DNA of 64,000 nt. Source: Demequina aestuarii (GTDB lineage Bacteria; Actinomycetota; Actinomycetes; Actinomycetales; Demequinaceae). A model generated the notes under the pieces. It saw only the letters and a list, made by a program, of their open reading frames with translations. It ran no database searches and was not told the origin of the DNA. This document shows positions 3-16,825 of this stretch, one piece after another. Where the stretch lies: the NCBI RefSeq assembly GCF_000975095.1, contig NZ_BBRD01000001.1:639467-703466 (forward strand), written 5' to 3'. Both the position numbers and the translations under genes were made by a program. How positions within the stretch are numbered: the stretch's first letter is position 1; each line of letters starts with the position of its first letter.

Positions 3-839
3 AAGGCCGATGTCGCGGTGCTGTACGACTGGGACTCGCTGTGGGCGCAGGACCTTGAGTGGCGCCCGTCGGACGACCTCCAGTTCCGGGAGCGCATGCG
101 GGCCTACTACGAGAGGCTGTGGCGTGACAACGTCACCATCGACTTCGCGCACCCTGAGCACGATCTCAGCGGCTACAAGCTCGTGGTGGCGCCCGCGTCC
201 TACCTGCTCACCGCATCCGCCGGGGAGAACCTCACACGCTATGTCGCGAACGGCGGCACGCTGCTAGTCTCGTGCTTCGCGGGCGTGGTCGACGAGCACG
301 ATGCGGTCCACGAGGGCGGCTTCGGGGCGCCGCTGCGCGACGTGCTCGGGGTGGCGGTGGAGGAGTACCTGCCGCTGCGCGCCGGGCGAGAGATGACTGT
401 GTCCTACGGGGAGCAGTCCCTGGCCGCCGACGTGTGGGCCGAGGACATGACGCTCGCGGGGGCAGACGTGCGTGCGACGTTCGTCGACGGACCCGGCGCG
501 GGCCTGCCTGCGATCACCCGGCACTCGCACGGCGACGGTCACGGCTGGTACGTCGGCACCCGACTGAGCGCGGACGCGCTCGCGACCGTGATGGCAGATG
601 TCTACGCGGACGCGGGCATCACCCCGCCTGGCACGCCGAACGATGTCGAGGTCGTCACGCGCCACGGCGACGCCTTCGACTACGTCATCGCGGTCAACCA
701 CGGCGAGACGCACGCTGATCTACCGATCCGTGGCACCGACCTCATCACCGGTGCCAGGGTCGACGGAAGACTTGAGCTGCAGGCCGGCGACGTCGCCGTC
801 GTGCGGACCTCGCACGCTCGAGAGGGGGGTGGTCGCTGA
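3..839 (+). CDS. ganA: GH42 beta-galactosidase, C-terminal part
   Basis: The gene runs in from before the window, so only about 278 C-terminal residues are seen. The opening (AVLYDWDSLWA) matches the end of the GH42 catalytic barrel. It is followed by the Rossmann-like trimerisation domain (SGYKLVVAPASYLLTASAGE, then a GGTLLVSCFAG segment) and a small C-terminal beta domain typical of GH42 enzymes. GH42 enzymes release galactose from beta-galactosides inside the cell. The genes that follow form a galactan uptake and cleavage cluster, so the likely substrates are galacto-oligosaccharides made by the GH53 enzyme at the other end of the operon, as in the Bacillus ganSPQAB locus. The catalytic glutamates lie upstream of the window and cannot be checked. 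Confidence 0.88.
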   Translation, partial: KADVAVLYDWDSLWAQDLEWRPSDDLQFRERMRAYYERLWRDNVTIDFAHPEHDLSGYKLVVAPASYLLTASAGENLTRYVANGGTLLVSCFAGVVDEHDAVHEGGFGAPLRDVLGVAVEEYLPLRAGREMTVSYGEQSLAADVWAEDMTLAGADVRATFVDGPGAGLPAITRHSHGDGHGWYVGTRLSADALATVMADVYADAGITPPGTPNDVEVVTRHGDAFDYVIAVNHGETHADLPIRGTDLITGARVDGRLELQAGDVAVVRTSHAREGGGR

Positions 840-2357: not shown

Positions 2358-3962
2358 ATGACCGTCGAGACCGGCGCCCCGCGCCAGGAGCCCGACCTGC
2401 GGGAGTCGCACGCGCGCGGCTGGCGCGGCGTCGGGTGGGGCTTCGTGGCGAAGCTCCTCATGATGGCGCTGGTCAACGCGCTGGGGCTGAGCATCATCTT
2501 CGCCGCTCTCAACGTTGAGGCGTGGGGGATCCTCGCCGCCTCGACAACGCTGCTGATCGCCGCGGACGTCATCTACTTCATGAAGCGCACCCTGCCGCTC
2601 AAGTACATCTTCCCTGGACTGGTCTTTCTCCTGGTCTTCCAGGTGTTCGTGCTCGGATACACCGGCTACGTCGCCTTCACCAACTACGGCACCGGGCACG
2701 CCGGCTCGATGCAGCAGGCGGTCGATGCCGCGCTGATTCAGGACGAGCAGCGCGTCGAGGGGTCGCCCACCTACCCGCTGGCCGTCGTCGACAACGGCGA
2801 CGAGATCGGCTTCGCGATCAACGCCGACGGTGAGGTGAGCGTCGGCACCGAGACGCAGCCCCTCGAGCCCGTGGGCGGTGCGGTCGTGGACGACGCCGGC
2901 ACGCCGGTCGAGGTCGAGGGGTGGGAGATCGTTCCCCGCTCGGCGCTGTTCACCGACCAGGACCTGCAGAACCAGGTCGTCGCGCTGCGCGTCCCGGTGT
3001 CCGACGACGCCGAATCCGGGTCGATCCGCACCCGAGACGGGTCGTCTGGCGCGATCTACAGCTCCTCGCTCGACTGGGACCCCGACGCCCGTACCTTGAC
3101 CGACAGCGAGACCGGGACCGTCTACGAGGCCACCGACACCGGCAACTTCGTCGCCGCGGACGGCAGCTCGCTGCCCGCCGGCTGGGTCGTCACCGTGGGC
3201 TTCGACAACTTCGTCGACGCCGTGACCGACACGAACCTGTCCGGGCCGCTCGCCAAGGTCACCGTGTGGACGTTCGCGTTCGCGATCCTGACGGTGCTCA
3301 CGTCGTTTGGCCTGGGCCTGCTGTTTGCGATCATCTACAACGATCCCCGCATTCGCGCCCGGCGCACGCTGAGGACGCTGTTCATCCTCCCGTACGCGTT
3401 CCCCGCGTTCATGTCCGCACTCCTGTGGCGCGGAATGTTCAACCGCGAGTTCGGCATCATCAACGACTGGTTCTTCTTCGGGATGGACATCAACTGGCTC
3501 GGCGACCCGCTGCTGGCCAAGGTGGTGATCCTGTGGGTCAACCTGTGGCTGAGCTACCCGTACTGGTTCCTGGTCTGCACCGGAGCGCTCCAGGCGCTGC
3601 CGGGTGACATCACGGAGGCCGCCCGCATCGACGGCGCCGGCCGCTGGCGCCAGTTCAGGTCCATCACGCTGCCGCTCCTGATGGTCTCGACGGCGCCCCT
3701 CGCCATCGCCTCCTTCGCCTTCAACTTCAACAACTTCACGATCATCTACATGCTGACCGAGGGCGGCCCACCGTTCCCGGGCACGAGCGGGCTCGGATCC
3801 TCGGACATCCTCATCTCCGCGATCTACAGCATCTCCGGCGTTGACGGAGGCGTGGCCAACTACGGGCTCGCATCGGCATTGTCGATCGTGGTCTTCATCG
3901 TCGTGGGCGTCATCTCTGCGATCGCCTTCCGCCAGACCCGCAAGCTCGAGGAGATCCAGTGA
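2358..3962 (+). CDS. ganP: MalF-type sugar ABC permease with large extracellular insert
   Basis: A 534-residue inner-membrane permease, much longer than the roughly 300 residues of most MalF-like subunits. Three predicted membrane segments (about residues 30-50, 57-75 and 83-105) precede an external region of about 180 residues (about 108-290), comparable to the P2 loop of E. coli MalF. The core permease domain follows, with the EAA loop at about 419-440 (EAARIDGAGRWRQFRSITLP), which contacts the ATPase. The ATG is preceded by GACAGGAG. It overlaps the next permease gene by one base, so the two are translationally coupled and form the heterodimeric channel for the upstream binding protein. 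No ATPase gene is present in the cluster. Confidence 0.88.
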   Translation: MTVETGAPRQEPDLRESHARGWRGVGWGFVAKLLMMALVNALGLSIIFAALNVEAWGILAASTTLLIAADVIYFMKRTLPLKYIFPGLVFLLVFQVFVLGYTGYVAFTNYGTGHAGSMQQAVDAALIQDEQRVEGSPTYPLAVVDNGDEIGFAINADGEVSVGTETQPLEPVGGAVVDDAGTPVEVEGWEIVPRSALFTDQDLQNQVVALRVPVSDDAESGSIRTRDGSSGAIYSSSLDWDPDARTLTDSETGTVYEATDTGNFVAADGSSLPAGWVVTVGFDNFVDAVTDTNLSGPLAKVTVWTFAFAILTVLTSFGLGLLFAIIYNDPRIRARRTLRTLFILPYAFPAFMSALLWRGMFNREFGIINDWFFFGMDINWLGDPLLAKVVILWVNLWLSYPYWFLVCTGALQALPGDITEAARIDGAGRWRQFRSITLPLLMVSTAPLAIASFAFNFNNFTIIYMLTEGGPPFPGTSGLGSSDILISAIYSISGVDGGVANYGLASALSIVVFIVVGVISAIAFRQTRKLEEIQ

Positions 3963-4849
3963 TGTCTGCTCACAACGCCGTCGCCCCGCGTCACACCCCG
4001 ACCCGCCGATCCCGGTGGTGGGGAGAGCTCGGCTGGAAGTACCCGGTCGCGGCCGTCATCATCTTCTACTCGATCTTCCCGCTGGTCTACGTGCTCTCGG
4101 CGGCGCTGTCCGATTCGGGCACGCTGTCGAGCGGCGGTGCGCTGTTCAGCGACGTCTCGTTCTCGAACTTCGCCGCGCTCGGCGACACGTCCTATTGGTC
4201 GTGGGTCGCCAACACCCTGATCGTGGGCGGCGCGTCCTCGTTCGGAGCCGTGATCATGGGCGCGGCGGCCGCGTACGCCTTCTCACGCTTCCGCTTCAAG
4301 GGACGACGCCCCGGGCTGACGTCGCTGCTGATCATCCAGATGTTCCCGCAGACGGTCGCCTTCATCGCGGTGTTCCTGCTGCTGACTGCGCTCGGCAACG
4401 TCGCGCCGGCGCTCGGCATCAACTCGAAGATCGCGCTGATCTGCGTGTACCTGGGCGGTGCGCTGGGCGCCAACACGTTCCTCATGTACGGCTTCTTCAA
4501 CTCGATCCCCGTCGAGATCGACGAGGCGGCCAAGATCGACGGCGCGACCCATTCGCAGATCTACTGGCAGCTCATCATGCCCCTGGTCACCCCGATCCTC
4601 GCCGTGGTGGGGCTGCTCGCCTTCATCTCGGCGTTCGGCGACTTCATCCTGGCGAGGATCGTGCTCGTGTCCGAGGATCAATGGACGCTGGCCGTCGGCA
4701 TGTACCAGTGGGTGTCGAACCAGCTGACCAGCAACTGGGGCCTGTTCGCCGCTGGTGCGGTGATCGCCGCGATCCCCGTGCTGGTGCTGTTCCTGTCGCT
4801 CCAGCGCTTCATCGTGGGCGGACTGTCGTCCGGCTCGGTCAAGGGCTAG
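3962..4849 (+). CDS. ganQ: MalG-type sugar ABC permease
   Basis: About 295 residues with six predicted membrane helices and the EAA motif (EIDEAAKIDGATHSQIYWQL), the usual form of the MalG family. The start ATG overlaps the stop of the preceding permease in the sequence TGATG; a GTG three bases earlier is possible but less likely. With the MalF-type partner it should form the pore of the galacto-oligosaccharide importer. Because no ATPase is encoded nearby, the complex probably borrows a multitask ATPase of the MsiK/MsmX type, which is established for many Gram-positive oligosaccharide importers. The C-terminus ends soon after the last helix. Confidence 0.88.
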   Translation: MSAHNAVAPRHTPTRRSRWWGELGWKYPVAAVIIFYSIFPLVYVLSAALSDSGTLSSGGALFSDVSFSNFAALGDTSYWSWVANTLIVGGASSFGAVIMGAAAAYAFSRFRFKGRRPGLTSLLIIQMFPQTVAFIAVFLLLTALGNVAPALGINSKIALICVYLGGALGANTFLMYGFFNSIPVEIDEAAKIDGATHSQIYWQLIMPLVTPILAVVGLLAFISAFGDFILARIVLVSEDQWTLAVGMYQWVSNQLTSNWGLFAAGAVIAAIPVLVLFLSLQRFIVGGLSSGSVKG

Positions 4850-4916: not shown

Positions 4917-7900
4917 ATGACACTGCGACGCAGACTGGGAGCGGTCACGGCCGCGGCGGCCGCCTCTGCACTCGTCGTCACCGGACTGGTGACCACAGCA
5001 TCGGCAGCCGAGGACGGGCCCGTCGATGCGGGGATCACCGTCCCCAAGGTCGAGGGCATGGGTGAGGGGTGGATCAACGGCGTCGACGTCTCGTCGGTGC
5101 TCTCCCTCGAGGAGTCGGGCGTGGTCTTCCGCGACGATTCAGGCGCCGAGGCGGACCTGTTCGAGGTGCTCGCCGACCATGGCGTGAACTGGGTGCGCGT
5201 ACGTGTGTGGAACGACCCGTGGACGGCCGATGGCAACGGCTACGGCGGCGGCAACACGGACGCCGACCGCGCGACGGAGATCGCCGAGCGCGCGACGGCG
5301 GCGGGCATGCGCGTGCTCGTGAACTTCCACTACTCCGACTTCTGGGCGCACCCCGGACAGCAGCAGCTGCCCAAGGCCTGGAAGGATCTCGACACGGTCG
5401 CCGAGCGGGCCGTAGCCGTGCGTGCCTACACCGCCGCCACTCTTCAGCAGATGGACGACGCAGGCGTGGACATCGGCATGGTGCAGATCGGCAACGAGAC
5501 GACGCCGAACGCCAGCGAGCAGATCGTCGAGGTGGGCGGTTGGGACGACTTCGCCACCGTGGTGAGCGCCGGATCCGCCGCGGTCCGCGAGGTGGTGCCG
5601 GACGCTCAGGTCGCGGTGCACTTCACCAACCCCGAGCGGGGCAACCACCCGTCGTTCGCTGCGGCGCTCGACGAGCGAGGCGTGGACTATGACGTCTTCC
5701 TCAGTTCGTACTACCCCTTCTGGCACGGATCGCTCGAGGACCTCACGGGCAGCCTGAACACCATCGCCCAGACGTACGACAAGGATGTCGCCGTTGCCGA
5801 GGTGTCGTGGGCCTACACGCTCGAGGACGGGGACGGCCACCAGAACACGGTCCGCACCCCGTACGACCAGTACTCGATCTCGGTCCAGGGCCAGGCCCTC
5901 GCCATCCGGGACGTGATGCAGGCCGTCGCGAACGTGGAGAACGGTCGTGGCATCGGCACCTTCTATTGGGAGCCCGCCTGGCTTCCGGTGGGGACGCCGG
6001 ACCAGCTCGAGTCCAACCAGGTGCTGTGGGAGCAGTACGGCTCCGGCTGGGCATCGAGCTACGCGGGCGAGTACGACCCGGCCGATGCGGGCGTCTACTA
6101 CGGCGGCAGCTCGTGGGACAACCAGGCGTTGTTCGACTTCGACGGGCGCCCGCTCGAGTCGCTGAAGGTCTACGACTACGCCGTGACGGGATCCGTCGCG
6201 CCGCGTGAGGTCGACTCCGTGTCGTCCCCGTCGATCACGGTCTTCGACGACGAGGCGGTCGCGCTTCCCAGCTCCGTGACCGTGCGCTACACGGACGGCA
6301 CGTCCGAGGCAGCCCCGGTCACGTGGTCGGCCGACGCCACGTGGATCGCCGGCCCCGGCCTCTACACGGTGGTCGGCGCCACGAGCGACGGCACTGAGGT
6401 GACTGCCACCGTCGAGGTGCTCTCGTCGGAGACGACGGGGGAGAACCTCGTCGTCAACGGCGGCTTCGAGGACGCTGACGTGTCGATGTGGGAAGGCACC
6501 GGTTCGGGCTTCACCATTGGTCGGGCGGAGGACCCCTACACCGGCACGCAGTCGACGCACTGGTACAGCGGGAGTGCGAACTCTTTCGAGATCGCCCAGA
6601 CTCTCACCGACGTGCCCGCGGGCACGTACCGTCTCTCGGCGTTCCTGCAGGGTGGCGGGGCCGGCCCCGACGATGCGGTGACGCTGTACGCGCAGCACGG
6701 CATCAGCACGGTGTCCGCCGCGGCGACTCTCGAGGGCTACGAGGTCTGGCAGAACCCCACGACGTCTCTGCTCTCCGTCTCCGACGGCGGCACCGTGGAC
6801 GTCTGGATCGAGTGGGACCTCAGCGCTGGCGCGTGGGGCACGCTCGACGACGTGTCCTTCGTCCTGGGCGCGGAGCTGCCCGACGCTGACACGGGTGCGC
6901 TCGAGGCACTGGTCGACCAGGCCGAGGCCGTCGATCGCGACACATACTCCGCCGTCTCGTTGCTGAGCCTCGACCGGGGACTGCGCCGTGCGTCATTTGT
7001 CCTGGGCTCGCCGGCTCCGTCCCAGCTGGCGGTGGACGGCGCTGTCTCCCAACTGCAGGCCGCGATCGACGGGCTTGAGGAAGGGGACGGCACCATTCCT
7101 GATCCCACGGTCGCGCCGGTGGAGGTCGTAGTCGTGGACGGTGACGCGATCACGCTTCCGGACACGGTCACGGTGGTCGCCTACGACGATTCCACGTCCA
7201 CGGAGTCCGTGGTGTGGGACGACGTTCTGGACGCGATTCCCGGACCGGGCGTCTACGCCGTGGCCGGCGTGACCGAGAACGGTTGGGACGCGACGGCTCA
7301 GATCACGGTGACCACACGCAACTGGATCGCCAACGCGGGCTTCGAGAGCGGCGTGGACGACGTCTCGCCGTGGAGCCTGGTGGCTGACCCGTGGCCATCG
7401 GACGACGGCAGCTACTGGGTGACAGCGGCGGCCGGATCGGAAGGCGACGAGGGAGCGTTCGCACTGAACTACTACGTCCAGGCGGAGCCGTACGAGTTCA
7501 CGGGCTCGCAGGTGATCGACCTGCCCGCGGGAACGTACCGCCTCGAGGCGACGGCGATGGGGGGCAGCGACGCCGGCGGTCCGGCCTCCGTCACGCTCGT
7601 CGCCTCTGTCGACGGCGAGGAGCACGCCGCACCATTCACACTGTCCGGCTGGCCCACGTGGGACCGCCAGGCGATCGAGTTCGCGGTGAGCGAGGATGCC
7701 GTGACCACGGTCGGGGTGCGCGGCAGCGCCGATGACGGGGACTGGGGTTTCATCGACGACTTCTCGTTGGTGGCCGTGGGAGTTGACGCCGCCGATGCCT
7801 CAGCGCTCGAGGATGCCATCGCTCAGGCGGAGGCGCTCGACCCCGATCTCTACACCCCGGAGTCGGTCGCGGCGCTCGCGCTCGCAACCGAGCGCGGCCG

Positions 7901-8327
7901 CATCGTGCTGGCGGCCACGAGTGCGACCAAGGCAGTCGTCGACGCGGCGGCGGCGCAGGTGCGTGCTGCCGTCGACGGCCTTGTCCCCGTGCGCGGTCCG
8001 ATGTGCGAGATCGACTACGCCGTCCATGGCCAGTGGCCGGGGGGCTTCATCTCCCAGGTGTGGATCACGAACGTGTCCGACGAGTCGATCGACGGCTGGG
8101 ACCTGTCCTGGACCTTCGCCGGCGATGAGCGGGTGGCGAACCTGTGGGGCGGCGACGTCGATCAGGATGGCGCCGGTGTCGCGGTGTCGAGCCTGCCGTG
8201 GAACTCCACGATCGATCCGGGCGAGCGCATCACGTTCGGCTTCGTCGGCGCGAGCTCGGGCGGCGCGCTGCCGCTTGACGCGTTCACCATGAACGGGTCC
8301 GCCTGTGAGGTCGCGCCCGAGCAGTGA
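4917..8327 (+). CDS. ganB: Secreted modular arabinogalactan endo-beta-1,4-galactanase (GH53)
   Basis: A 1136-residue exported enzyme. Domains in order: signal peptide 1-30 (cleaved after TASA); GH53 catalytic barrel about 50-420, with acid/base Glu194 (IGNETT) and nucleophile Glu295 (VAEVSW); bacterial Ig-like (Big_4 type) about 436-502; CBM61-like beta-galactan binding module about 509-651; FIVAR helical repeat about 658-722; second Ig-like about 733-800; second CBM61-like about 802-955; second FIVAR about 962-1025; and C-terminal CBM2 about 1030-1132. GH53 enzymes cut beta-1,4-galactan in pectin side chains. The CBM2 would anchor the enzyme on cellulose, so it could work within plant cell walls. 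Start: ATG after GAAAGGA. It is the last gene of the operon. The CBM assignments rest on motif resemblance. Confidence 0.93.
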   Translation: MTLRRRLGAVTAAAAASALVVTGLVTTASAAEDGPVDAGITVPKVEGMGEGWINGVDVSSVLSLEESGVVFRDDSGAEADLFEVLADHGVNWVRVRVWNDPWTADGNGYGGGNTDADRATEIAERATAAGMRVLVNFHYSDFWAHPGQQQLPKAWKDLDTVAERAVAVRAYTAATLQQMDDAGVDIGMVQIGNETTPNASEQIVEVGGWDDFATVVSAGSAAVREVVPDAQVAVHFTNPERGNHPSFAAALDERGVDYDVFLSSYYPFWHGSLEDLTGSLNTIAQTYDKDVAVAEVSWAYTLEDGDGHQNTVRTPYDQYSISVQGQALAIRDVMQAVANVENGRGIGTFYWEPAWLPVGTPDQLESNQVLWEQYGSGWASSYAGEYDPADAGVYYGGSSWDNQALFDFDGRPLESLKVYDYAVTGSVAPREVDSVSSPSITVFDDEAVALPSSVTVRYTDGTSEAAPVTWSADATWIAGPGLYTVVGATSDGTEVTATVEVLSSETTGENLVVNGGFEDADVSMWEGTGSGFTIGRAEDPYTGTQSTHWYSGSANSFEIAQTLTDVPAGTYRLSAFLQGGGAGPDDAVTLYAQHGISTVSAAATLEGYEVWQNPTTSLLSVSDGGTVDVWIEWDLSAGAWGTLDDVSFVLGAELPDADTGALEALVDQAEAVDRDTYSAVSLLSLDRGLRRASFVLGSPAPSQLAVDGAVSQLQAAIDGLEEGDGTIPDPTVAPVEVVVVDGDAITLPDTVTVVAYDDSTSTESVVWDDVLDAIPGPGVYAVAGVTENGWDATAQITVTTRNWIANAGFESGVDDVSPWSLVADPWPSDDGSYWVTAAAGSEGDEGAFALNYYVQAEPYEFTGSQVIDLPAGTYRLEATAMGGSDAGGPASVTLVASVDGEEHAAPFTLSGWPTWDRQAIEFAVSEDAVTTVGVRGSADDGDWGFIDDFSLVAVGVDAADASALEDAIAQAEALDPDLYTPESVAALALATERGRIVLAATSATKAVVDAAAAQVRAAVDGLVPVRGPMCEIDYAVHGQWPGGFISQVWITNVSDESIDGWDLSWTFAGDERVANLWGGDVDQDGAGVAVSSLPWNSTIDPGERITFGFVGASSGGALPLDAFTMNGSACEVAPEQ

Positions 8328-13293: not shown

Positions 13294-13477
13294 GAGTCCT
13301 CCTCGAGTGTTCCTGCTCTCACGCTATCGCGGGCGACATCGCGTCGAGCGGGACCCGGGGCCCGCGCCTTGCGCAACACGGTGGACACACAGGCTTCACC
13401 CAGAGTTTCCCCGTCCGTCGTGCGCGGCGCGACGCCGGTCCCTACGGTGGAGTCAACCGGATAAACAGGGAGAATTC

Positions 13478-16400
13478 ATGCGTCGTCGCACCACCGCTTC
13501 TGCTGTCGTGATCGCGTTGGGGGTGACCGCCGCAACGGCGCTTCCCTCCGCTGCGGACACCCCCACCGAGCTGCTCCTCTCCGAGTACGTCGAAGGGTCG
13601 AGCTTCAACAAGGCCGTCGAGATCTACAACGGCACGGGGGAGGCGGTGGACCTCGAGCCCTACGTGCTCACCCAGTACTCGAACGGCAACACCTCGGCGT
13701 CGGTGAACCTCGACCTCACGGGGAGCGTGGCCGCAGGCGACGTCTTCGTCGTGGCGCACTCGAGCGCAGATCCCGCGATCCTCGCTGAGGCGGACCTCAC
13801 GAGCGGTGCGGGCCTGTTCAACGGAGACGACGCGCTGGTGCTGTTCCGTGACGATGCCGTGGTCGACTCCTTTGGTCAGGTGGGGGTGGATCCGGGCTCC
13901 GAATGGCCGGGCGGCGGCGCCGACGACACCCTGCGTCGTCTCCCCACCGTGTGCGCGGGCGACACCGACCCGTTCGCCGCCTTCGACGCCGCGCAGGAGT
14001 GGGAGGTGCTGCCGGTCAACACCGTCGATGGCCTCGGCGCCCACGCCACCACCTGCGACGGCGGGCCCGTCGAGGACGCGGCCCCTGCGGTCGCCTCCAC
14101 GTCGCCCGCCGACGGCGCGCTGGGGGTCAGCCCCTCCGCGCCGCTCGACGTGGAGTTCACGGAGCCCGTGGTGGCCGACGGCGCCTTCGCGCTGGAGTGC
14201 ACGGAGTCAGGAGTGCTCGCGCTCACGGTCGACGGTGGCCCCACCACGTTCACGCTGACGCCGGACGCGGAGCTCGTCGAGGGCGAGGAGTGCGTGCTGA
14301 CCGTCGCCGCATCGGCCGTCACGGACGTGGACACGAACGACCCGCCGGACGCCATGCTGGAGGATGTCGCGGTGACGTTCACCATCTCGGACGGCCCCGT
14401 GACCATCAGCACGATCCAGGGCGAGGGCGACACCTCCCCGCTCGACGGGCAGACGGTGACGTTCGAAGGAGTCGTCGTGGGCGACTACGAGGGCGCGAGC
14501 CCGAACCTTCGCGGCTTCTACGTGCAGTCGCGCGATGAGGACGCTGATGACGACCCCGCGACCTCGGAGGGCATCTTCGTCTTCAACGCAGGCGCCGACG
14601 AGGTCGACCTCGGCGACGTCGTCTCGATCACGGGCGAGGTCTCCGAGTACCAGGGCCAGACGCAGGTGAGCTTCGCCGACGTCGAGGTGCTCGACACCGG
14701 AGCATCCGTCACGTCCGCCTCCGTCTCGCTGCCCTTCGCCGATGCGGCGGAGGCGGAGCGCTACGAGGGCATGGCGGTCGAGTTCAGCCAGGAGCTGTTC
14801 GTCACCGAGTTCTACCTCCTCGGCCGGTTCGGTGAGATCACCGTGTCGAGCGGGGACCGGCTGGACCAGCCCACGACGGTCGCCGAGCCCGGCACCGAGG
14901 CCAACGAGGTGCAGGCAGCGAACGACCTCAACCGCATCACGATCGATGACACCCTCAACAGTCAGAACCCCGACCCGATCATCTTCGGCGGAGCGGGAGA
15001 CCCGTTGGCCGCGGACAACCCGCTGCGCGGCGGCGACTCCGTGACCGGGCTCACCGGCGTCATGACCTACACCTGGGCGGGCAACTCGGCCTCGGGCAAC
15101 GCCTGGCGCGTGCGCCCGGCCTCGCCGACGGCCGACGCCCCGGTGTTCGAGTCGAACAACGCGCGTCCCACCAGCGCGCCCGAGGTGGGTGGCAGCCTCA
15201 AGGTCGCGAGCTTCAACGTTCTCAACTACTTCACCACGATCGACGGCGACGGTCCCATCTGCGGGCCGGTCGGATTCGAGCAGTTCTGCCGCGGTGCGGA
15301 CTCGGAGCTGGAGCTGGAGCGCCAGACCGAGAAGCTGGTCGCGGCGATGCTGGAACTGGACGCTGACGTGATCGGCATCATGGAGATGGAGAACACGCCG
15401 GGGGCCGAGCCGCTGGCCTACCTCGCCGACGCTCTCAACGCGGAGGTCGGCGCGGGCACCTACTCGTACGTCGACTCCGGGGTCATCGGCACCGACGTGA
15501 TCCGGGTGGGGATGCTGTACGACACCACGGCCGTGGTCGAGGAGGGTGAGATCGCGGTGCTGGACTCCGGCGTCGACCCGCGATTCGACGACGACAACAA
15601 CCGCCCCGCGCTCGCCCAGACGTTCGAGGAGATCGCCACCGGCGAGACCTTCACGGTGGTGGCGAACCACTGGAAGTCGAAGGGCTGCGGCTCCGCCACC
15701 GGCGCGAACGCCGATCTGGGCGACGGTGCGTCGTGCTGGAACGAGACCCGCACCCTCGCGGCCGAGGCCATCGTGGACTGGGTGGCCACGTCGCCCACCG
15801 GCGTCGAGGACCCGGACGTGTTCATCCTCGGGGACCTCAACTCCTACGCGCAGGAGGACCCGATCGACGTGCTGCGCGACGCCGGCTACGTGGACATGGC
15901 GGCGGACGGCTACGGCTACGTCTTCGACGGGCAGTGGGGATCTCTGGACTACATGTTCGCGTCCTCGAGCCTGGCCGACCAGGTGACGGGTTCGGCTCAC
16001 GTGAACATCAACGCCGACGAGCCGTCGGTGCTGGACTACAACACCGACTTCAAGTCGGAGGCGCAGATCGAGTCCCTCTACTCGCCCGACTGGTACCGCA
16101 CCTCGGACCACGATCCGGTGCTGGTGGGACTGAACCTCGACTCCGGCCCGGAGCCCACTCCGATCTGTGAGATCAGCTACGAGATCCACGGGCAGTGGAC
16201 GGGCGGCTTCATCTCGCAGGTCGAGGTGACGAACACTTCGGACGAGACCATCGACGGCTGGGACGTCGCGTGGACGTTCGCTGGAGACGAGCAGGTGTCC
16301 AACCTCTGGGGCGGTCAGGTGACCCAGTCGGGAGCGGACGTCTCCGTGGAGTCCATGTCCTGGAACGGCACCATCCGGCCTGGGAAGAGCACCACGTTCG

Positions 16401-16825
16401 GCTTCGTGGGAACGACTGGCGGCCGCGCGCTCGACATCGCGGAGTTCGCGCTCAACGGATCGCCGTGTGACGTGGACGTCGAGCCCGTACCGGAGCCCAC
16501 CCCCATCTGCGAGGTGGACTACACGGTTCACGGGCAGTGGCCGGGCGGCTTCATCTCGCAGGTCGAGGTGACGAACATCGGCGACGAGCCGATCCACGGC
16601 TGGGACGTGGCGTGGAGCTTCGCCGGAGACGAGCAGGTGGCGAACCTGTGGGGCGGCCAGGTGACGCAGACGGGCGCAGACGTGTCCGTGGCGTCCATGA
16701 GCTGGAACGGGACGATCAAGCCGGGCAAGCACACCACCGTCGGGTTCACCGGCTCGACCGGTGGCGGAGCGCTCGACGTGGGCGAGTTCACGCTGAACGG
16801 CACTCCCTGCACCGTCACCCCCTAG
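13478..16825 (+). CDS. Secreted ExeM/NucH-type nuclease with lamin-tail domain and two CBM2 modules
   Basis: A 1115-residue exported protein. Order: signal peptide about 1-27; lamin-tail domain about 30-140 (LLLSEYVEGSSFNKAVEIYN); SbsA-like Ig domain about 203-305; an ExeM/YhcR-type OB-fold region about 308-410; endonuclease/exonuclease/phosphatase domain about 573-886; and two C-terminal CBM2 modules about 897-998 and 1011-1113. Nuclease residues visible: FNVLNYF, Glu636/Glu638 (MEMEN), His731 (NHWKSKG), Asp786/Asn788 (GDLNSY), and Asp877-His878-Asp879 (SDHDP). ExeM/NucH enzymes cut extracellular DNA and remodel biofilm matrix. Cellulose-binding modules on such an enzyme are unusual. The ATG follows AGGGAG; the open frame extends upstream but there it is low-complexity and overlaps the SDR gene. 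It has its own promoter region and terminator, so it is probably monocistronic. Confidence 0.92.
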   Translation: MRRRTTASAVVIALGVTAATALPSAADTPTELLLSEYVEGSSFNKAVEIYNGTGEAVDLEPYVLTQYSNGNTSASVNLDLTGSVAAGDVFVVAHSSADPAILAEADLTSGAGLFNGDDALVLFRDDAVVDSFGQVGVDPGSEWPGGGADDTLRRLPTVCAGDTDPFAAFDAAQEWEVLPVNTVDGLGAHATTCDGGPVEDAAPAVASTSPADGALGVSPSAPLDVEFTEPVVADGAFALECTESGVLALTVDGGPTTFTLTPDAELVEGEECVLTVAASAVTDVDTNDPPDAMLEDVAVTFTISDGPVTISTIQGEGDTSPLDGQTVTFEGVVVGDYEGASPNLRGFYVQSRDEDADDDPATSEGIFVFNAGADEVDLGDVVSITGEVSEYQGQTQVSFADVEVLDTGASVTSASVSLPFADAAEAERYEGMAVEFSQELFVTEFYLLGRFGEITVSSGDRLDQPTTVAEPGTEANEVQAANDLNRITIDDTLNSQNPDPIIFGGAGDPLAADNPLRGGDSVTGLTGVMTYTWAGNSASGNAWRVRPASPTADAPVFESNNARPTSAPEVGGSLKVASFNVLNYFTTIDGDGPICGPVGFEQFCRGADSELELERQTEKLVAAMLELDADVIGIMEMENTPGAEPLAYLADALNAEVGAGTYSYVDSGVIGTDVIRVGMLYDTTAVVEEGEIAVLDSGVDPRFDDDNNRPALAQTFEEIATGETFTVVANHWKSKGCGSATGANADLGDGASCWNETRTLAAEAIVDWVATSPTGVEDPDVFILGDLNSYAQEDPIDVLRDAGYVDMAADGYGYVFDGQWGSLDYMFASSSLADQVTGSAHVNINADEPSVLDYNTDFKSEAQIESLYSPDWYRTSDHDPVLVGLNLDSGPEPTPICEISYEIHGQWTGGFISQVEVTNTSDETIDGWDVAWTFAGDEQVSNLWGGQVTQSGADVSVESMSWNGTIRPGKSTTFGFVGTTGGRALDIAEFALNGSPCDVDVEPVPEPTPICEVDYTVHGQWPGGFISQVEVTNIGDEPIHGWDVAWSFAGDEQVANLWGGQVTQTGADVSVASMSWNGTIKPGKHTTVGFTGSTGGGALDVGEFTLNGTPCTVTP
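16166..16813 (+). repeat. Tandem CBM2-coding repeat
   Basis: Two back-to-back copies of a CBM2 sequence (about 16166-16477 and 16508-16813) share long identical DNA stretches, for example around HGQW-GGFISQVEVTN and SFAGDEQV-NLWGGQVTQ. A third, more diverged copy ends the GH53 gene (about 8004-8315). The likeness suggests domain duplication within this genome. Confidence 0.85.

Follow-up and report, generated by a model that had tools for sequence, protein, structure and literature searches.

Demequina aestuarii encodes an ExeM/NucH nuclease that ends in two tandem CBM2 modules, each carrying the three tryptophans of a known cellulose-binding domain, and the gene is preceded by conserved direct repeats that resemble PHO boxes. 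On balance, we consider it somewhat probable that this protein is a secreted, non-specific nuclease that belongs to the phosphate-starvation (Pho) response and is tethered to cellulose through its two CBM2 modules. As a rule, discussions of carbohydrate-binding modules concern enzymes that break down polysaccharides. The gene lies in a stretch of 64,000 nucleotides (the window) from contig NZ_BBRD01000001.1, and positions below are numbered from its first nucleotide.

The nuclease gene and its product

The initial annotation had placed the feature exactly, and our analysis confirmed it. The features of the gene are as follows:

13467..13472, + strand: probable ribosome-binding site, AGGGAG (read off the sequence, unscored)
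13478..16825, + strand: ExeM/NucH extracellular nuclease gene, 1115 aa (open reading frame, profile searches)
13478..13558, + strand: probable Sec signal peptide, about residues 1-27 (by eye in the translation: RRR, a hydrophobic stretch, small residues)
13559..13882, + strand: lamin tail domain (LTD), residues 28-135 (PF00932, 56.5 bits, cut-off 34.3)
14075..14383, + strand: bacterial Ig-like domain Big_5, residues 200-302 (PF13205, 42.5 bits, cut-off 23.6)
14465..16138, + strand: ExeM/NucH nuclease region (OB part and EEP domain), residues 330-887 (NF033681, 595.9 bits, cut-off 300)
16166..16468, + strand: CBM2 copy 1, residues 897-997, W-W-W (profile and alignment)
16508..16810, + strand: CBM2 copy 2, residues 1011-1111, W-W-W (profile and alignment)

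Profile searches bore out the LTD, OB-fold and EEP domains and the two tandem CBM2 modules that had been read from the sequence earlier, and they added the Big_5 domain, which was absent from that description. The nuclease region scored above the curated cut-off of the ExeM/NucH model; against the ExeM-GG exonuclease model (NF033680), the protein reached 323.1 bits, below the curated cut-off of 1300. Structure comparison assigned residues 574-886 to the DNase I fold, and the OB part aligns with residues 2-94 of 9sf8. Eight catalytic positions of the EEP domain are present and are invariant across 30 sequences, in agreement with the intact active site that the initial annotation had described. 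By these sequence and fold criteria the protein is an ExeM/NucH nuclease, and it is predicted to cleave DNA.

The protein resembles Shewanella ExeM and Corynebacterium glutamicum NucH in its LTD, OB part and EEP nuclease, and it has the same types of putative metal- and phosphate-binding residues (E, D; H, N, H) that are reported for ExeM, an enzyme described as degrading both DNA and RNA (PMC6085458, excerpt). It differs from the ExeM/NucH family at its end, which consists of two CBM2 modules and not of a membrane or GlyGly anchor. We recognised no C-terminal anchor in the translation, which stops four residues past the second CBM2. Both linkers contain the motif PEPTPIC. Export would run through the probable N-terminal signal peptide, which was read by eye.

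The two CBM2 modules

Against a cut-off of 24, the Pfam CBM_2 profile matched the two modules together with 181.4 bits, and taken one by one they scored 102.6 and 101 bits. For both copies, the best match in sequence and in fold was the cellulose-binding domain of Cellulomonas fimi (1exg, 6qfs). The copies share the fold, the terminal cysteines and three tryptophans with Cex CBM2a; W-W-W stands in both at the positions that we take to be W17, W54 and W72 of the Cex binding face. The exposed aromatic residues, whose lack would have counted against the initial annotation, are retained in both copies. What differs from Cex is the setting, since here the module sits in tandem on a nuclease and not on a cellulase or xylanase. 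The chitin-binding domain of Streptomyces ChiC (2rtt) was also among the CBM2 matches, and in the predicted structure the confidence of copy 2 is below that of copy 1. The best matches and the intact tryptophan triads suggest that the nuclease may be held on cellulose through its CBM2 pair.

We found aromatic residues at all three positions of the nuclease CBM2 in 17 of the 20 Demequina genomes that carry the fusion. The triad has been lost in the other three, G009, G017 and G037 (first position outside the extracted stretch), which suggests that cellulose tethering is dispensable in those genomes. In D. aestuarii, CBM2 also occurs on the GH53 enzyme and on one GH9 and one GH5 protein, both cellulase candidates. 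Across the genus, carrying CBM2 on the nuclease was not associated with how many other CBM2 genes a genome has, the mean being 1.8 others in the 20 genomes that have the fusion and 1.6 in 13 that lack it (hand count, broken G010 excluded); these counts therefore do not show that the fusion goes strictly with cellulose degradation.

Origin of the CBM2 pair

The two copies are 77% identical in protein and 77% identical in DNA, and of 114 codons compared, 26 differ synonymously only and 29 are changed. In the CBM2 tree, the two nuclease copies pair with each other (98/88), and the nuclease CBM2 of G015 joins them in a larger clade (98/93); the GH53 module of D. aestuarii groups with the GH53 modules of G030 and G001 (89/85). 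The tree was built from 33 short domains; 13 of its forks are open and some branches are long, so that its deep relations are unsure. We relied only on the two groups that contain the D. aestuarii (G000) copies and on the GH53 group supported at 89/85. The pair thus arose by tandem duplication inside the nuclease gene of the D. aestuarii lineage, or was homogenised. At 77% DNA identity, the duplication is not very recent.

The initial annotation had instead proposed recent domain shuffling with the CBM2 of a neighbouring enzyme:

4917..8327, + strand: GH53 galactanase, a syntenic neighbour separate from the nuclease, with its own CBM2 at 8004-8306

The nuclease copies are 63-64% identical to this GH53 CBM2. 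On these identities and the placement in the tree, we rejected a recent exchange between the two genes.

The galactanase belongs to a galactan-use cluster at the left edge of the window (18-839, 1005-2270, 2358-3962, 3959-4849 and 4917-8327), which contains the C-terminal part of a GH42 beta-galactosidase, a solute-binding protein, two permeases and the GH53-CBM2 galactanase. The GH53 CBM2 lacks the aromatic triad in six genomes (loci L094, L096, L098, L102, L123 and L125), which form one fast-evolving clade.

Distribution of the nuclease-CBM2 fusion

A nuclease match was present in 34 of 44 Demequina genomes. In 20 of the 34, one open frame encodes both the nuclease and CBM2 (the G012 gene is split between contigs), and in 13 the gene lacks CBM2; in the remaining genome, G010, it is broken. 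Among these 34 genomes, only D. aestuarii has two CBM2 modules on the nuclease. Similarly, among 121 proteins (the query and the best 120 matches listed), 37 carry CBM2 and the query alone has two. The closest named protein among the matches listed, P0002 of Demequina muriae, is a single-CBM2 ExeM that is 91% identical and matches the D. aestuarii protein in domain order as far as its first CBM2. The single-CBM2 ExeM genes of other Demequina share the gene neighbourhood of the D. aestuarii gene, but encode one CBM2 and not two.

At least four further fusions occur among the matches listed (P0122, P0123, P0124 and P0207), including the CBM2-bearing nuclease P0123 of Demequina capsici. The named carriers among the matches listed are all Demequina save P0122, from an Ilumatobacteraceae MAG (6-kb contig). 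The single-CBM2 form proved to be common within the genus, and among the named matches listed it occurred once under another name, in P0122. Among 80 named loci, the fusion was found in 12 of 15 titled Demequina and in 0 of 65 others, with loci L127-L146 incomplete at the end, where a CBM2 further downstream would escape. The ExeM relative P0242 likewise combines LTD and EEP nuclease with C-terminal carbohydrate-binding modules, but its three modules belong to another family, CBM5/12, which binds chitin or cellulose.

We also searched broader genome samples for single matches spanning both parts (E <= 1e-30), a search that recovered 12 of the 14 known Demequina fusions in the order sample and can miss those with long spacers or divergent parts. 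In the order sample (297 genomes), a spanning match was found in 12 Demequina genomes and, after G047 had been checked, in 0 of 274 others. G047 was a candidate fusion outside Demequina (model positions 1-206), which we rejected, as its frame contains no CBM2. In the class sample (394 genomes), the only confirmed fusion was that of the D. aestuarii genome, so that no other genus of the genomes sampled yielded one.

The initial annotation had named an already widely described architecture as grounds for its refutation; in the open-licence literature searched, we found no description of a nuclease-CBM2 protein. The available excerpt of a Clavibacter secretome study (PMC7839047) has nuclease and cellulose-binding proteins as separate entries. 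Together, these results indicate that the nuclease family and the binding module are both known, and that their combination is uncommon overall and common within one genus.

PHO-box-like repeats upstream of the nuclease gene

Upstream of the nuclease gene lies the following element:

13383..13411, + strand: PHO-box-like direct repeats, three 7-base units with an 11-base period (GGACACA-CAGG-CTTCACC-CAGA-GTTTCCC), starting 95 bases upstream of the ATG

In 33 Demequina genomes (L148-L180), pstS follows a strong triple PHO box near GTTCACC-N4-GTTCACC-N4-GTTCAGA; these boxes have an 11-base period and are usable as a genus-specific matrix. The scoring matrix was built only from these 33 pstS promoters (a pstS-family match was present in 43 genomes), with GTTCACC as our assumed start motif. 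It replaced a Streptomyces PHO consensus, with which, at two units, p <= 0.05 against shuffles was reached by 9 of the 33 regions before nuclease genes, too weak a test by itself.

With the Demequina pstS matrix, the site at 13383-13411 had the highest score among the 127,942 positions of the window, both strands included. Its three-unit score was 3.3, compared with a 99% shuffle level of 2.4, and its units depart from the consensus of the strong pstS boxes. The signal extends across the genus: with three units, 31 of 33 nuclease upstream regions exceeded 95% of shuffles, compared with 0 of 126 control regions, which lie upstream of NifS, GH53, ETFb, GlgX and ABC genes and are partly coding. 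With two units, the counts were 30 of 33 and 1 of 126. The 33 species in this test are related; nuclease start codons were set by a simple rule, G013 has two nuclease genes of which one was entered, and two genes whose frame gave no LTD match (that of G018 and the second one of G028) were left out. In a scan of periods, 29 of 33 regions responded at 11 bases, and periods of 7-10 and 12-16 bases gave 2 to 6 of 33; the small gap between 29 and the 30 of the two-unit test at the same period comes from rounding of the level. PHO boxes of Streptomyces consist of direct repeat units of 11 bases (PMC7866108, excerpt). These putative PHO-like repeats suggest that the nuclease gene is under PhoP control.

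In C. glutamicum, phosphate starvation is reported to induce nucH and ushA, and PhoR to bind their promoters; NucH presumably breaks down DNA and RNA outside the cell, and UshA is a 5'-nucleotidase (PMC3353115, excerpt). The putative phosphate-starvation control of the D. aestuarii gene would match that reported for C. glutamicum nucH.

A conserved locus with a variable C-terminus

ETF genes, NifS or both adjoin the nuclease in 35 of 36 loci with a nuclease match; the exception is L115, the second gene of G028. The usual gene order is ABC-GH53-GlgX-ETF-ETF-SDR-nuclease-NifS, with losses and rearrangements. The nuclease C-terminus at this locus takes several forms: one CBM2, or two in D. aestuarii; a 5'-nucleotidase (Metallophos and 5_nucleotid_C) in L094 and L107; a 5'-nucleotidase together with CBM2 in L118; and S-layer domains in L097. 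In L111, L116, L112 and the first gene of L102, Pfam recognises nothing at the nuclease C-terminus.

The proteins of L094, L107 and L118 share the locus, the nuclease part and the upstream PHO-like repeats with the D. aestuarii nuclease, but unlike it they carry C-terminal metallophosphatase and 5_nucleotid_C domains. In the nuclease tree, the gene of G031, which has both the 5'-nucleotidase and CBM2, is sister to six long-tailed genes without CBM2 (100/99), of which L094 is confirmed as a 5'-nucleotidase by Pfam. This topology fits a history in which a nucleotidase was inserted ahead of CBM2 and the latter was lost afterwards; other histories are possible. The fused 5'-nucleotidases would join the steps of NucH and UshA and so complete the conversion of DNA to phosphate.

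Two genomes have two ExeM-like genes each, G013 (L102) and G028 (L114/L115); those of G013 are in tandem, with CBM2 on one only. The nuclease frames of L099 (G010) and L108 (G022) are in pieces; the G010 assembly is 50% complete and sequencing error is possible.

Discussion

The best explanation combines computed features, namely the domains, catalytic residues, fold, aromatic triads, duplication history and conserved promoter repeats, with export, DNase activity, cellulose binding, PhoP control and an ecological role, all of which we infer. Under phosphate shortage, PhoP bound to the upstream direct repeats would induce the nuclease gene. The enzyme, exported via its probable signal peptide and lacking a recognisable C-terminal cell anchor, would settle on cellulose in plant debris or in a biofilm that contains it, alongside the CBM2-bearing GH9, GH5 and GH53 enzymes of the cell. 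There its EEP domain would cut DNA, and probably RNA, from lysed plant and microbial cells, and phosphatases could then free phosphate and nucleosides near the attached cells. The initial annotation had already put forward this release of phosphate and nucleosides, an idea for which the PHO-like repeats now provide independent promoter evidence. In sediments, extracellular DNA is reported to be a large source of phosphorus (PMC8289736, excerpt), and Demequina capsici, which comes from the pepper rhizosphere, is reported to degrade cellulose (PMC11233565, excerpt).

The CBM2 modules might instead put the nuclease on cellulose fibres mainly to cut the extracellular DNA of rival biofilms or of the cells' own, letting cells reach or leave a fibre, with phosphate being secondary. 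Shewanella ExeM is required for normal biofilm formation (PMC6085458, excerpt), and the intact CBM2 triads suit such a role; the conserved PHO-like repeats and the 5'-nucleotidases fused to the nuclease within the genus, however, point to nutrition. We regard a primary role in biofilms or competition as unlikely, although both functions may hold together. The target of the pair may also be another polymer, such as chitin or a cell-wall or matrix glycan, so that the enzyme would be tethered to fungal walls, animal debris or the cells' own matrix. The ChiC domain among the matches and the three CBM5/12 modules of P0242 lend this some weight, but both modules match the C. fimi domain best and keep all three tryptophans, and the same genome has CBM2 on GH9 and GH5 cellulase candidates. 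This makes a different ligand rather improbable.

It is more doubtful still that the CBM2 tail contributes little to a nuclease that works freely secreted, and drifts near neutrality as the module is lost, swapped or duplicated by chance. Such drift would agree with the triad losses in three of 20 genomes, with the 13 of 34 nuclease-bearing genomes that lack CBM2 on the gene (one more, G010, being broken) and with the missing association with other CBM2 genes. Against it, 17 of 20 genomes keep all three aromatics across CBM2 domains that are as little as about half identical, and D. aestuarii has duplicated the module with both triads intact.

Returning to the cellulose-held Pho nuclease, we tentatively suggest a broader possibility, which we hold with less than moderate confidence: in Demequina, one Pho-controlled nuclease gene at its conserved locus may serve as a chassis whose C-terminal module (CBM2, S-layer domains, 5'-nucleotidase, or nucleotidase plus CBM2) determines the place or mode of action of the enzyme. 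The form tethered to cellulose would then target plant cell walls, with the tandem CBM2 as a high-avidity version. If so, CBM2 would place the enzyme on cellulose, S-layer domains would place it on the cell, and a 5'-nucleotidase would allow conversion of DNA to phosphate by one protein. The alternative C-termini at one locus would offer natural material for testing tethering against nutrient capture, and the D. aestuarii protein is a possible biotechnological part, as a DNase for immobilisation on cellulose. A cellulose-tethered Pho nuclease, if real, would link phosphate starvation to attachment to plant litter, and would mean that litter bacteria mine DNA for phosphorus where they mine sugar for carbon.
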